A DNA stretch of 64,000 bases from Methanosalsum natronophilum. GTDB taxonomy: Archaea > Halobacteriota > Methanosarcinia > Methanosarcinales > Methanosarcinaceae. The notes under the pieces are model-generated. The model did not search any database. It was not told where the DNA came from and saw only the letters and a list, made by a program, of their open reading frames with translations. The stretch is from positions 1-64,000 of the forward strand of contig NZ_JANUCS010000011.1 of NCBI RefSeq assembly GCF_024808815.1. Direction: 5' to 3'. The position numbers were made by a program, and so were the translations under genes. This document shows positions 57,367 to 62,285 of this stretch, one piece after another. The stretch's first letter is position 1; each line of letters starts with the position of its first letter.

Positions 57367-57380
57367 TAGCCAAATATGCG
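57367..57380 (+). repeat. left target-site duplication of the casposon-like element
   Basis: TAGCCAAATATGCG abuts the left inverted repeat. It matches TAACTAAATATGCG at 62014-62027 at 12 of 14 positions, both differences being transitions. The right copy contains the last three tRNA-Leu bases. Confidence 0.6.
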
Positions 57381-57410
57381 GGGTTATAGTTATCTTCAAA
57401 AAAGGAACTC
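57381..57410 (+). repeat. left terminal inverted repeat
   Basis: It starts GGGTTATAGTTATC, then TTCAAAAAAG, then GAACTC. The first 24 bases are identical to the reverse complement of 61990-62013, and GAACTC matches after one extra base on the right side. Confidence 0.7.
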
Positions 57411-57570
57411 CTGTTTTTTATTTAATCTTTTTTGATTTTATTAGCTCTTTTTTAATTTTTGTTATATCACTATTTCACCTTTTTTTATTGTTATCATAAT
57501 ATGGAACTGATAGAAATCTTTCTATATGAGCACTCAAATATTTATTTTATAGTTTTTTAGAAGGTATTAT

Positions 57571-58062
57571 ATGTCAAAAACATCAAAACAAATTCTATAT
57601 GTTTTTTTATAGTTATAGTTGTGGCTACAGTAGGGTGTGCTAATCTTATAAGTGATATCAGATAATAATTGATGAATATAATGCTTATATTAACCAGTAT
57701 AATAGCTTAATAGAGAATGACCGAGAAATACGAAACAATGAACAGAAAAAAACTGATCAGTACAATGACATTATTTACCGATATAATTCAATGTCTTATT
57801 CTCAGCAAACATCTCCAAATACTCAAAGAGAAAATGATAGAGTAAAACCTGAACTTAATAGAGCTTCAAGAGATTTCCTAATTCACCTTAAAACTAAAGA
57901 AAGACATGTAGAAGACATGCTTAGATTAATGGGATTAACAAAGATAATTTAATTAAACAAGAACTTGCACATTATTTAGAGATAAGGTCAAACTTAATAG
58001 AAGCAAAGGTAAGTATTCGAAGTGATAAAGAAATAGCTAAGAACTGGCTCTATTCACAATGA
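57571..58062 (+). pseudogene. lipoprotein gene broken by frameshifts
   Basis: The ATG at 57571 opens MSKTSKQILYVFL and stops. One frame over, IVIVVATVGCAN continues as a signal peptide with a lipobox-like cysteine. Two further frames carry a coiled-coil-like body (IDEYNAYINQYNSLIENDRE ... ASRDFLIHLKTKERHVEDML) and a tail (NLIKQELAHYLEIRSNLIEA ... KNWLYSQ) to the TGA at 58060-58062. Pieced together it is a ~160-residue membrane-anchored lipoprotein of unknown function. Three frame changes make it a pseudogene unless the assembly is wrong. It is the first gene inside the element. Confidence 0.7.
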
Positions 58063-58152
58063 TTAATCTAACATTGTAATTTTTATTAATTCAAATGATT
58101 AACACAAGGCTAAACCATTAGTGAAAAATGTTGAATTCAAGATGTTGATAAA

Positions 58153-59001
58153 ATGAAGGATATTTATTTATTTTTGATCCTGGTTCCATCGGTTCTAATT
58201 ATGAACGTGATTGCATACTACCTTTTCATTCCTGATAAATACAAATACAAAAAAAGAAAGATAAATGAAACTATTTCAGCAACAACTCATAAGTTTTCGT
58301 TTTTATCTGAAATTTTGCCCTACCTGTTGCTGGTAGCTTTTGCATATATATTTGTGAAGTCTCAATGGTCAATAGTAACCATGCTTGGAATTTCTCAAAG
58401 TTATGCACTTGCAGACTACATTCTTGATGTGGAAGGCAACATTGTAAGCTTTTTCCAGATAATTGCCAGTCCCTTTTTGACCTATGTGAGCTCATTTATT
58501 TATCTTATAGGATTCCCTTTCCTTTTAACCTTCACATTTGTGATACTTCTGTTCACAAGACAGGTCAAAGCACTGCAGGAGTATGCCATTGCAATCACAA
58601 TTGCCTATATGCTGGCTTTCTTTTTCTATACCTTCACTCCTGTAGCTGTTACTGGACACACATTGCCTGATGTTGTTCCTCTTCTTTACAATCTAAGTCC
58701 TATTATAAACGATGGTTTAAGGTCATTAGACCCATTTCTCAACAGATGCTTTCCAAGCCTGCATGCAGGCCTCTCCTTTTTGGCAATGCTATTCATAATA
58801 TTCAAAACAGACCTCGATAATTTCAAACCCATTGCCATATTCATTACAATAGCTATTCAGTTTACCATATTCTATCTGGGAATACACTGGATACTGGACT
58901 TCATTGCAGGAGTGATACTTGCAGGTATCAGTTTTTATACAGCTGAACAGGTCCACAAAAGAATATCAAATTTCCAGGTTATTTATGGTAAAAGAAATTA
59001 A
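58153..59001 (+). CDS. PAP2-type membrane phosphatase
   Basis: A 282-residue protein with six to seven helices and the acid phosphatase/PAP2 motifs: RCFPSLHAGLSFLAM (near 197) and GIHWILDFIAGV (near 237), with catalytic histidines; the first motif is degenerate. It would dephosphorylate a lipid phosphate at the membrane, as in inositol-phosphorylceramide or polyprenyl-diphosphate enzymes. Codon use is noticeably less AT-rich than its neighbours: about 47% G+C in 58561-58620, with many CTG and GCC/ATC codons. That suggests later arrival. It is the only intact-looking large gene in the element. Confidence 0.75.
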   Translation: MKDIYLFLILVPSVLIMNVIAYYLFIPDKYKYKKRKINETISATTHKFSFLSEILPYLLLVAFAYIFVKSQWSIVTMLGISQSYALADYILDVEGNIVSFFQIIASPFLTYVSSFIYLIGFPFLLTFTFVILLFTRQVKALQEYAIAITIAYMLAFFFYTFTPVAVTGHTLPDVVPLLYNLSPIINDGLRSLDPFLNRCFPSLHAGLSFLAMLFIIFKTDLDNFKPIAIFITIAIQFTIFYLGIHWILDFIAGVILAGISFYTAEQVHKRISNFQVIYGKRN

Positions 59002-59087
59002 TATTGATTTTTGGCTATGTTACAAATTTAAAAGTCAAAATACCGTTGCTAGAATGATTGATCTGGTTTTTTAACTACTTTGAATAA

Positions 59088-60212
59088 GTATACTGTGGTG
59101 AGAAAGAGGTTGGTGAAGAAGAAATGATTGAAGGTAATATAGTGATACTTGGCAAAAGTTGAAATCTAACTCTTGAAGGTATTAGATGGTTAATAAAACA
59201 TAATGTACAGGTTACAATTATGGATTGGAATGGAAAATTATTGACTACAATGTTACCATCTGAAAGTACCAATGTTAAAACTAAATTTGCTCAATATCAT
59301 GCATTTGAGAATAAGAAAGCTAGAGTGTATTTAGCTAAAAAGCTAATCGAAGCCAAGATTTCAAAATCTGAAACTGTTCTTGACGATCTTAAATAAAAAA
59401 ACTCTAAAATTGAATTTGATTTTTCAGTTGAATTGAATAAAATACAAAATGCAACTACGATTAAAGAGATTATGGGTATTGAAGGTGGTATTGCTTGGAA
59501 ATACTGGAAAGAGTTTGGAAAATCAGTTCCATCAAAATATGAATTTGGCTCAAGGATTGATGACTACAGAAGACCAGTAAATGCAGGAGACAAAGTTAAT
59601 GTTATGTTGAATTATGGGTATGCTCTGCTTGAAGCTGAATGTTTAAGAGCTATTAATTCAAACGGTCTTGATGCTCATGTAGGGTTTTTACATGAAATGA
59701 ATCCAAGTAAGAACAGTCTAGCTTATGATTTACAAGAGCCTTTTAGATTCCTTGTTGATCTTGCAGTAATTAACCTGATTGAAAGAGATGAAATGGATAA
59801 GAAAGATTTTATCAGAACTGAATCTTATTCATTAAGACTTAGACCAACAGGTGCAAGAAAAGTAACTAATGAATTCAACAAAATGTTGAACAAAAGGGTA
59901 AGTTACAAAAACACCAATAAATCATGGAATTATATTCTATTTTTAAAAGCAAGAGAACTTACACATTACCTTACAGGAAAAAAGGATAACATAGATTTTA
60001 ACAAACCGTTGTATAAAATTGAAAGAGCTGAGTCAGAATTACTTAGACAAAAAATTATTGCTTTATCATACTCTGAATGGAAAGAAATGGGGTTTTCTAA
60101 AGGTACACTACATTATATGAAAAAGAATGCTAAATCAGGTAAACCATTTAAACTGAATTCTCATGTTAAAGAAAGACTTGAGAACTGGGAAATTTTGAAG
60201 GGTGAAGCATGA
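59088..60212 (+). pseudogene. cas1: cas1 pseudogene (casposase or orphan Cas1)
   Basis: The frame reads YCGEKEVGEEEMIEGNIVI, TGA at 59160-59162, NLTLEGIRWLIKHNVQVTIM ... STNVKTKFAQYHAFENKKAR ... TVLDDLK, TAA at 59394-59396, then 259 open residues. These include EIMGIEGGIAWKYW, the catalytic-region ALLEAECLRAINSNGLDAHVG with His/Glu/Asp (HVGFLHE, YDLQEPFRFLVDL), and a C-terminal helix-turn-helix (YSEWKEMGFSKGTLHYMKKN). The N-terminal strands are missing. Casposases and some CRISPR Cas1 proteins share that HTH tail. No cas2, other cas gene or CRISPR array lies near, which favours a casposase. Confidence 0.8.
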
Positions 60213-60414
60213 TAATTTAATATTATATTTACGATTTTATAGGATTAGAAAAGCAGTAGTGATAAAATAAATTAGATGATGATTTAATATTGTATCAAAT
60301 AATATTAATAAAAAAATATATAACTACAAGCTTTATTATGTACTCGAATCTATGAAAAATTAAATTACCAAATACAATAATTTATTTCATAACAGAAAAT
60401 ATTTAGAATCACTC
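60213..60414. other. 202-base AT-rich gap
   Basis: No gene, no palindrome of note and no cas2-like frame. It separates the cas1 pseudogene from the convergent repeat-protein gene. Confidence 0.4.
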
Positions 60415-61035
60415 TTATGCCATGGTTTCAGGATTAGCCTGACTATCATCATCTAAAGCATGCATCATTTTCACAAGATTAGGTATTACTTTCACAAGAC
60501 CAACTACTACTTCTGTACGGTCATTCCAATTAATATTAGCAAGACCAACCCAACAATCATAATCTAAATTATCCATCACTTTCACTAGACGATCCATGAA
60601 TTTCATAAAATCATCCCAATTAATATTATCACTTTTTTTAGAATAATTCAGTATTGCTAATAAACCAAACTCTTCTGAAAACCTATTTAATATTTTTTTA
60701 GTATCATCATTAAGATCATCCCAATTAATATTACCAAATTTGTTAGAAGAATTGAATAGTGCTAATAAACCAAACTCATCTGAAAACTTATTTAATATTT
60801 TTTTAGTATCATTATTAAGATCATCCCAATTAATATCACTAGTTTTGTTAAAAGAATTGAATAGTGGTGATATACCAAACTCTTCTGAAAACCTATTTAA
60901 TATTTTTTTAGTATCATCATTAAGATCATCCCAATTAATATCACTAGTTTTGTTAGAAGAATTGAATATTGATAATAAGCCCAAATCCTCTGAAAAATTA
61001 TTTAATTTCTTTTTAGCAACATCCAAGCTCAACAT
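60415..61035 (-). CDS. 35-residue tandem-repeat protein, function unknown
   Basis: A 206-residue protein with three and a half tandem copies of a 35-residue unit, with core (N/R)xFSEEFGLLxxFNSSNK, xxDINWDDLN, DDTKKIL, at about residues 11-137. A different C-terminal part (WDDFMKFMDRLVKVMDNLDY ... ANINWNDRTEVVVGLVKVIP) looks like weaker copies. The DNA repeats (105 bases) are nearly identical, so duplication is recent. The units resemble amphipathic helix pairs, as in a solenoid; DUF1641-like helical repeats are a distant possibility. It is acidic, without signal or membrane segment. On the minus strand inside the element. Confidence 0.6.
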   Translation of the reverse strand: MLSLDVAKKKLNNFSEDLGLLSIFNSSNKTSDINWDDLNDDTKKILNRFSEEFGISPLFNSFNKTSDINWDDLNNDTKKILNKFSDEFGLLALFNSSNKFGNINWDDLNDDTKKILNRFSEEFGLLAILNYSKKSDNINWDDFMKFMDRLVKVMDNLDYDCWVGLANINWNDRTEVVVGLVKVIPNLVKMMHALDDDSQANPETMA

Positions 61036-61168
61036 TACTCACCTACTGTTTTGATATTTTTGGTATAAAAAAAGCCCTCGAAAAATTATAAAAGAAGTAT
61101 TTGGGTGACCATATAAAAATATTTTTATTAGTTCCATTCATCATTGACAATGAAAGGGAGTTAGAATA

Positions 61169-61926
61169 GTGACACTACAGGAAAAAAGATATCAAGAAAT
61201 ATTAAATAAGGTTCAAAAGCTAATTGGTGTGGATTTGAGTGATCAGAAAATTTTAAGAGAAGCTCTTACTCACATTTCGTATCTTAACGAACATCCCGAA
61301 ATTAAATCTAATTGTGGGCTTTTCGATGGACATAATGAAAGATTAGAGTTTTTGGGGAATTATGTTTTAGAACTCTCAATAGCACATAATCTTTATTCAA
61401 AATACCATGGAAGAGAAGGAGAGTTATCATATATAAAAGAACATTACAGTAAAACTAACACTTTATATGAAAAATTTGCGGGTCTCAATTTGGATAGAGA
61501 TTTATTATTTCTAGGTAATGGAGAATATAAAAAAAAACAAAACTTGAAAAAAGGAGTGAAGATTTTTTAGAGGCTTTGATTGCAGCAATTTATCTCGATC
61601 AAGGATTTGAGAGGGCAAATAAGTTTATAGAAACTTTTTTTTTGTCTGATTTAGATGATTATTTAAAAAAATATTCAGAACACCCCATTAAAAGTAAAAG
61701 AGATGAAAACCCAAAAGGGTACCTACAAGAGCAATGCCAGAAGCATGGATATGGAATCCCTTCTTATTCTAAAGAATGTGAAAAAACGGGAGAAGACCAT
61801 TCACCTAAGTATGCAACTTATGTGGAGATAAAGAAAAAAAAATATAAAGGGACTGGAGATAGTAAAAAAAATGCAGAAGATGATGCTGCTGAAAATGCAA
61901 ATAAAGAACTTTTTGACGAATCATGA
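61169..61926 (+). pseudogene. rnc: RNase III-like gene with a frameshift and a lost catalytic Asp
   Basis: GTG 61169 follows AGGGAG. The first frame has the RNase III signature as NERLEFLGNYVLEL (near 56-69), with Asn in place of the catalytic Asp of the family motif LGD. It runs to KKGVKIF and a stop. One frame back, KRSEDFLEALIAAIYLDQG restores the second catalytic motif, then a double-stranded RNA-binding domain (NPKGYLQEQCQKHGYGIPSY). The shift lies at the A-rich tract 61532-61560. RNase III is rare in archaea, so transfer from bacteria is likely. A slippage product is possible, but with the Asp missing the enzyme is probably inactive. Confidence 0.75.
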
Positions 61927-61982
61927 AGATATTTTAACCTGGGAAACCAGTTTTGTAAATAAACATTATTAAAAAATGATGA

Positions 61983-62013
61983 GAGTTCACTTTTTTGAAG
62001 ATAACTATAACCC
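61983..62013 (-). repeat. right terminal inverted repeat
   Basis: Reverse complement GGGTTATAGTTATC ... AAAAAAG, then TGAACTC. It mirrors 57381-57410 with a single inserted base and ends exactly at the 14-base duplication. Confidence 0.7.
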
Positions 62014-62027
62014 TAACTAAATATGCG
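62014..62027. repeat. right target-site duplication, overlapping the tRNA-Leu 3' end
   Basis: TAACTAAATATGCG lies directly after the right inverted repeat. Its last three bases (GCG) are the 3' end of tRNA-Leu on the minus strand; the left counterpart is 57367-57380. Confidence 0.6.
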
Positions 62028-62108
62028 AGGGGTGGGATTCGAACCCACGAAAACCTTCGTTACCAGATCTTAAGTCTGGCGCCTTTGACCTGGCTGGGCA
62101 ACCCTCGC
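62024..62108 (-). tRNA. tRNA-Leu (anticodon UAA)
   Basis: On the minus strand the sequence runs GCGAGGG ... CCCTCGC with a discriminator A at 62024. Anticodon stem CAGAC/..TCTG surrounds TTAAG (anticodon TAA), a long variable arm (AACGAAGG...) follows, and the GTTCGAATCC T-arm is present. It is a class II leucine tRNA, about 85 bases. CCA is not encoded. It is the integration site of the element; the target duplication keeps its 3' end intact. Confidence 0.95.
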
Positions 62109-62285
62109 AAAAAAGAGTAAATTCTGTGCTCTACTAATGTTACAACTAATATATAATTTTCACTATACTTTTGTATTGACATTGGAAAGCCATTAGTTTA
62201 AGCTAAATTTGTCTCAACTTGTTAAACAATCTTTATTAAACAACCCATAATTAAAGTTAAGTTACTTAAGCCTTATTATTATAGT

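Follow-up and report, generated by a model that had tools for sequence, protein, structure and literature searches.

The stretch from 57381 to 62013 of the window (the whole 64,000-nucleotide stretch of Methanosalsum natronophilum DNA that was analysed) is almost certainly a degraded family-2 casposon, located at the usual tRNA-Leu target, that has lost a block of core genes and carries stop codons and a frameshift. The CRISPR adaptation machinery is proposed to derive from casposons, and to our knowledge few non-intact casposons have been described. The original prediction had called this region a decayed casposon, and both parts of that claim were borne out, as it contains a gene of casposase identity and carries stops, a truncation and a frameshift.

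The relic measures 4,633 bp, and the outer coordinates first proposed for the element and its flanks, 57367-62027, are correct. Its ends are terminal inverted repeats (TIRs), the left one (GGGTTATAGTTATCTTCAAAAAAGGAACTC) at 57381-57410 on the plus strand and the right one at 61983-62013 on the minus strand. As predicted, 24 identical bases are followed by GAACTC: 57381-57404 and 61990-62013 form an exact inverted repeat of 24 nt, and inward of it the sequence reads GGAACTC on the left and GTGAACTC on the right, a one-base indel in which the left TIR is one T short after the 24-nt core before GAACTC resumes in both, for a total of about 30/31 nt. This pair is the longest inverted repeat in the 64-kb window and the only one of at least 18 nt; the longest distant inverted repeats in 20 window-sized order-1 Markov sequences were 15-20 nt. 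Abutting the TIRs are two 14-bp target-site duplications (TSDs) with no strand assignment, TAGCCAAATATGCG at 57367-57380 and TAACTAAATATGCG at 62014-62027, which are identical at 12 of 14 positions and have their edges exactly at the TIRs; in most intact relatives the two copies agree at 14/14. The right TSD overlaps the 3' end of a tRNA-Leu(UAA) gene at 62023-62109 on the minus strand, the insertion target, and in tRNA orientation it reads CGCATATTTAGTTA, with the conserved CGCA at the tRNA 3' end as in casposon family 2. Alignment and ARAGORN reproduced the flanking repeats and the tRNA overlap of the original prediction. The TIRs match right up to the borders of a direct repeat (12/14), and a tRNA 3' end supplies one of its two copies; such a coincidence makes a chance origin untenable. 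Furthermore, the left TIR is homologous to the TIRs of intact casposons of the archaeal family and of MetMaz-C1 (PMC10359463).

Between the TIRs, a casposase (cas1-solo) pseudogene occupies 59124-60212 on the plus strand. When read through its stops, this frame matches Pfam Cas_Cas1 (E=1.8e-63), in agreement with the Cas1-like gene reported earlier, and in the PDB the M. mazei casposase 6opm (E=1e-159) far outscores the runner-up, a CRISPR Cas1 (E=1e-34). The alignment to 6opm is gap-free over residues 5-359 and reaches 6opm residue 418, the C-terminal HTH included. In the M. mazei casposase, E162, H232 and E247 are catalytic, R191 and R192 contact the target, and the HTH is essential (PMC6977970); the read-through frame has E120, H190 and E205 and R149 and R150 at these positions, with a constant offset of 42. 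The C-terminal HTH of family-2 Cas1 is absent from other Cas1 proteins (PMC4046053). In a tree of 41 proteins (LG+C20), with 28 Methanosarcinaceae casposases and 12 CRISPR Cas1s, the frame grouped within the casposases and apart from the CRISPR Cas1s with a support of 100/97, which was the outcome expected from the original prediction. Its nearest neighbor was the casposase of G034 (92/76), which is also the closest intact casposase (72% identity). Judged by its sequence, the frame is a casposase.

A leftover CRISPR-Cas adaptation module lying near repeats by chance would also present a Cas1 domain, and three CRISPR Cas1 genes are found elsewhere in the host genome, all of them away from the relic. 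However, the tree separates the frame from such proteins, the casposase HTH is present, and no cas2, cas4, CRISPR array or CRISPR repeats were found inside 57381-62013, the lack of cas2 and of an array having been noted before. The tree and the C-terminal HTH refute this origin, whose probability we regard as negligible. On host contig C4 (L006), type I-E-like cas5, cas6, cas1 and cas2 genes adjoin a CRISPR-like repeat array. Searches of viral contigs returned no casposons, and phages and plasmids gave distant Cas1 matches only, those on plasmids being annotated as CRISPR Cas1.

The casposase frame of the relic is visibly decayed. Its first ~46 residues are gone, codons 13 and 91 are TGA and TAA stops, respectively, and the missing N-terminus was not found when sought upstream of the 59124 frame. 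Readthrough of the stops by pyrrolysine was rejected, since they are TGA and TAA, not TAG. Casposon family 2 has a five-gene core (PMC4046053), which in the relic is cut to cas1 alone. The HNH gene and both HTH core genes are absent, as tblastn of the core of the L053 casposon against the relic recovers cas1 only, and no family B DNA polymerase was found in 57381-62013 by ORF or Pfam analysis, which confirms the predicted absence of polB. A homology search for a casposon PolB was likewise negative in all three genomes that represent the genus, among which there was no positive control; in the host genome, a casposon PolB query replaced PF03175, whose controls were silent. Because it has no PolB, the relic is filed as a degraded derivative and not as an intact casposon.

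The cargo consists of a PAP2 phosphatase, a protein of 35-residue repeats and an RNase III, as originally described, together with a decayed small gene at 57572-58064 (plus strand) that has a lipoprotein-like start and several frame breaks in three-frame translation, and no family match. The PAP2-superfamily membrane phosphatase (58153-59001, plus strand, 282 aa) retains an open frame (Pfam PF14378, E=1.1e-14). The 206-aa repeat protein (60415-61035, minus strand) is built from ~35-residue units encoded by 105-bp repeats and is an orphan, with no relative in 112 genomes of the family. The RNase III with its dsRBD (61169-61926, plus strand) is spread over two frames (PF14622, 5.6e-14; PF00035, 9.8e-11) by a frameshift near 61555-61575, and it is ~41% identical to the RNase III of G061, which lies ~11 kb from a casposase relic or casposon end. 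The usual RNase III signature is ERLEFLGD, and that of the relic reads ERLEFLGN. In G039 (C17), G052 (C5), G053 (C45) and G063 (C1), too, an RNase III gene occurs at most 5 kb from a casposase relic or casposon end, which is commoner than a rough expectation. The idea that RNase III is conserved cargo of casposons was rejected, for in three of these genomes (G052, G053 and G063) the gene is located outside the recognised TIR; the tie is one of casposon neighbourhood only.

A second cas1 relic was observed in the host genome at C13:34191-34621 (L052:9693-10121), with the C-terminal 120 codons open plus ~70 bp downstream, between genes whose products resemble subunits of type I restriction-modification systems. 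It was rejected as a second full element, because nearly the whole 67-kb contig contains no TIR or core gene. Comparison of the Cas1 frame with this fragment (90.5% nucleotide identity) gave a dS of 0.28 and a dN/dS of 0.24, and comparison with a cas1 relic of the sister genome G002 gave a dN/dS of 0.16; pairs of intact casposases range from 0.06 to 0.16. These ratios indicate a selection history for cas1 that is apparently mostly purifying and recently relaxed. If a functional dN/dS of ~0.08 is assumed, roughly 1/6 of the divergence would have been unconstrained, or ~5% over both branches, and this estimate fits the differences between the TSDs (2/14) and between the TIRs (0/24) within small-number error. 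Loss of function may therefore simply postdate insertion. That the TSD copies differ at 2/14 positions yet the TIRs agree at 24/24 is slightly odd under uniform neutral decay, and it too is within small-number error.

A casposase match was found in 48 of 112 genomes of the family, including named relatives such as Methanolobus and Methanohalophilus. In the loci retrieved from them, units were recognised by homologous TIRs together with TSDs of at least 11/14. PolB, HNH and cas1 are combined in L053, L041, L056, L040, L095, L097, L098, L099, L100, L101 and L102, most of which have 14/14 TSDs and several of which are at tRNA-Leu; in L053, L041, L056, L040, L097 and L101 the order polB-HNH-213aa-HTH-cas1 is preserved between homologous TIRs with 14/14 TSDs. 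Of the comparison with relatives that was proposed at the outset, one half succeeded, as homologous TIRs and 14/14 TSDs at tRNA-Leu do occur on intact, PolB-bearing casposons of sister genera, but the exact pre-insertion (empty) site was not found; in the sister genome G002 none exists, because the flank of the orthologous tRNA-Leu(UAA) gene is occupied by a casposon TIR and a 196-bp cas1 relic. Neither this comparison nor the Cas1 tree refuted the original prediction. Similarly, the suggestion of a new, partly degraded lineage holds for the degradation but not for the novelty, as family-2 casposons were already known in this archaeal family.

Units lacking PolB or cas1 were also found (L055, L090, L091, L093, L096, L075 and L054), and in L075 and L054 C-terminal pieces of PolB are still present. 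L091 (G094, C30) has a 14/14 TSD and 31/31 TIRs, no cas1, and a broken polB as its sole core gene, and L090 (G089, C65) is 2.0 kb long with a 14/14 TSD and no core genes; both are candidate non-autonomous elements. The relic itself might have been such a derivative, with PolB and much of cas1 already gone at insertion and moved in trans in the manner of a MITE. Its TIRs are near perfect despite the decayed coding content, TIR-bounded units without PolB or cas1 but with 14/14 TSDs exist in relatives (L091, L090, L055 and L093), and a synthetic mini-casposon of TIRs and TSD only was mobile in M. mazei through the resident Cas1 (PMC10359463). Nevertheless, the host genome has no intact casposase and no second element bearing the TIR of the relic, the low dN/dS means that cas1 was functional through most of its divergence, and several of the short units have unlike TIRs and are better read as deletions between tandem insertions. 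Mobilisation in trans, which the original prediction had offered as an alternative, thus gained no positive evidence; it is not needed to account for the relic, and we consider it unlikely while granting it a minor share of the probability. The broader proposal that Methanosarcinaceae casposons spawn natural TIR-only cargo carriers, moved by co-resident casposases, with the relic, L090 and L091 as examples, is equally doubtful.

The unlike left and right TIRs of several reduced units suggest deletion between tandem insertions. By the same route, the relic could be a composite that arose by deletion between two casposons in tandem at one tRNA-Leu gene, its outer ends coming from different elements; tandem insertions are known in the family (L095 and the G034 cluster), and the mismatched-TIR units L099 and L054 look like such products. 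In contrast, both TIRs of the relic are of one type, identical at 24/24 and then sharing GAACTC, and no other copy is present in the genome. As the left and right TIRs are alike, 57381-62013 reads as one element, and a composite origin is improbable, more so than movement in trans.

For a single, degraded casposon, we infer the following order of events. A casposase would have joined the TIR ends to a 14-bp target at the tRNA-Leu(UAA) 3' end, an event that duplicated the target but did not disrupt the tRNA. The relic or its immediate ancestor would then have lost the segment that separated codon ~47 of cas1 from the left cargo, comprising PolB, HNH, both HTH genes and the N-terminal strands of the casposase, and afterwards the two nonsense mutations in cas1 and the frameshift in the RNase III gene would have followed. 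Self-driven movement is presumably impossible now, and the intact ends might still be used by a compatible casposase supplied in trans.

TIRs were also found behind other tRNA-Leu genes. In G002, the orthologous tRNA-Leu(UAA) gene has its casposon TIR 14 nt from CGCA, with the 196-bp cas1 relic 2.6 kb away; the cas1 sequences of the two loci are 90.8% identical, as against 67% for their orthologous flanks. As the relics are more alike than their hosts, the comparison suggests that one casposon lineage arrived separately in each, not that a single ancestral insertion was inherited by both. A single casposon TIR 14 nt from CGCA accompanies 5 of the 6 tRNA-Leu genes of G002 (L154, L155/L164, L156/L165, L157/L166 and L071), and no second TIR was found within ~19 kb of these genes (10 kb for UAA). 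Behind tRNA-Leu(CAG) in the congener G001, a TIR matches the right TIR of the relic at 30/31 positions next to a different 14-mer (L170:26-56, contig C70). This TIR is ~25 nt from the contig end, and past the break there may be an element of this lineage. G037 lacks any long casposase match; it carries a TIR at tRNA-Leu(UAA), one of three tRNA-Leu genes in 1.2 Mb, with cas1 fragments 7.5 kb away; none of the 16 other tRNAs in that 1.2 Mb is followed by a TIR. The other three tRNA-Leu genes of the host genome have no TIR behind them. At the start of host contig C15 (L167:1-224), the 5' half of a tRNA-Leu gene is present three times in tandem, ~95 bp apart, at the contig end. Over these four genomes, 8 of 15 tRNA-Leu genes are flanked by a TIR versus 0 of ~39 non-Leu tRNAs in all loci. 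Lone TIRs at tRNA-Leu genes, even in casposase-free genomes, are fossils of past insertions; the proximal TIR likely survives the element because deletions past it would hit the tRNA.

The relic adds a further Methanosarcinaceae genus, apparently Methanosalsum, to the casposon carriers; that genus was not named in the casposon papers of the open literature searched. Together with the lone TIRs of casposase-free genomes, it makes past casposon insertions countable long after gene loss, so that rates of gain, loss and site re-use become measurable. In these methanogenic archaea, the sequence directly following tRNA-Leu genes preserves a record of past casposon insertions.

Among the systems to which the relic can be compared, the tRNA-Leu TIRs and cas1 relics of G002, G001 and G037 share homologous TIRs and a target 14 nt from CGCA; unlike in the relic, the second TIR is lost or was not found. 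An inactive casposon has been reported before: MetBur-C3 of Methanococcoides burtonii, from the same archaeal family, is probably inactive (review PMC9939771), with amber codons in two genes, whereas the relic has TGA and TAA stops and has lost its core block. The L053 casposon (G034, 8,928 bp) resembles the relic in its TIR (GGGATATAGTTATCTC) and tRNA-Leu target, with a 14/14 TSD of its own; however, it has the full core gene set and other cargo. Finally, MetMaz-C1 and other M. mazei family-2 casposons share with the relic a TIR beginning GGGATATAGGTAACTC, a Cas1 with a C-terminal HTH, and a 14-bp TSD ending in TGCG at the 3' end of tRNA-Leu, the target named for them in the original prediction (PMC10359463, PMC6977970). 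In contrast to the relic, they are ~10 kb long, carry PolB, HNH and HTH genes and an intact Cas1, and their movement has been demonstrated in vivo.
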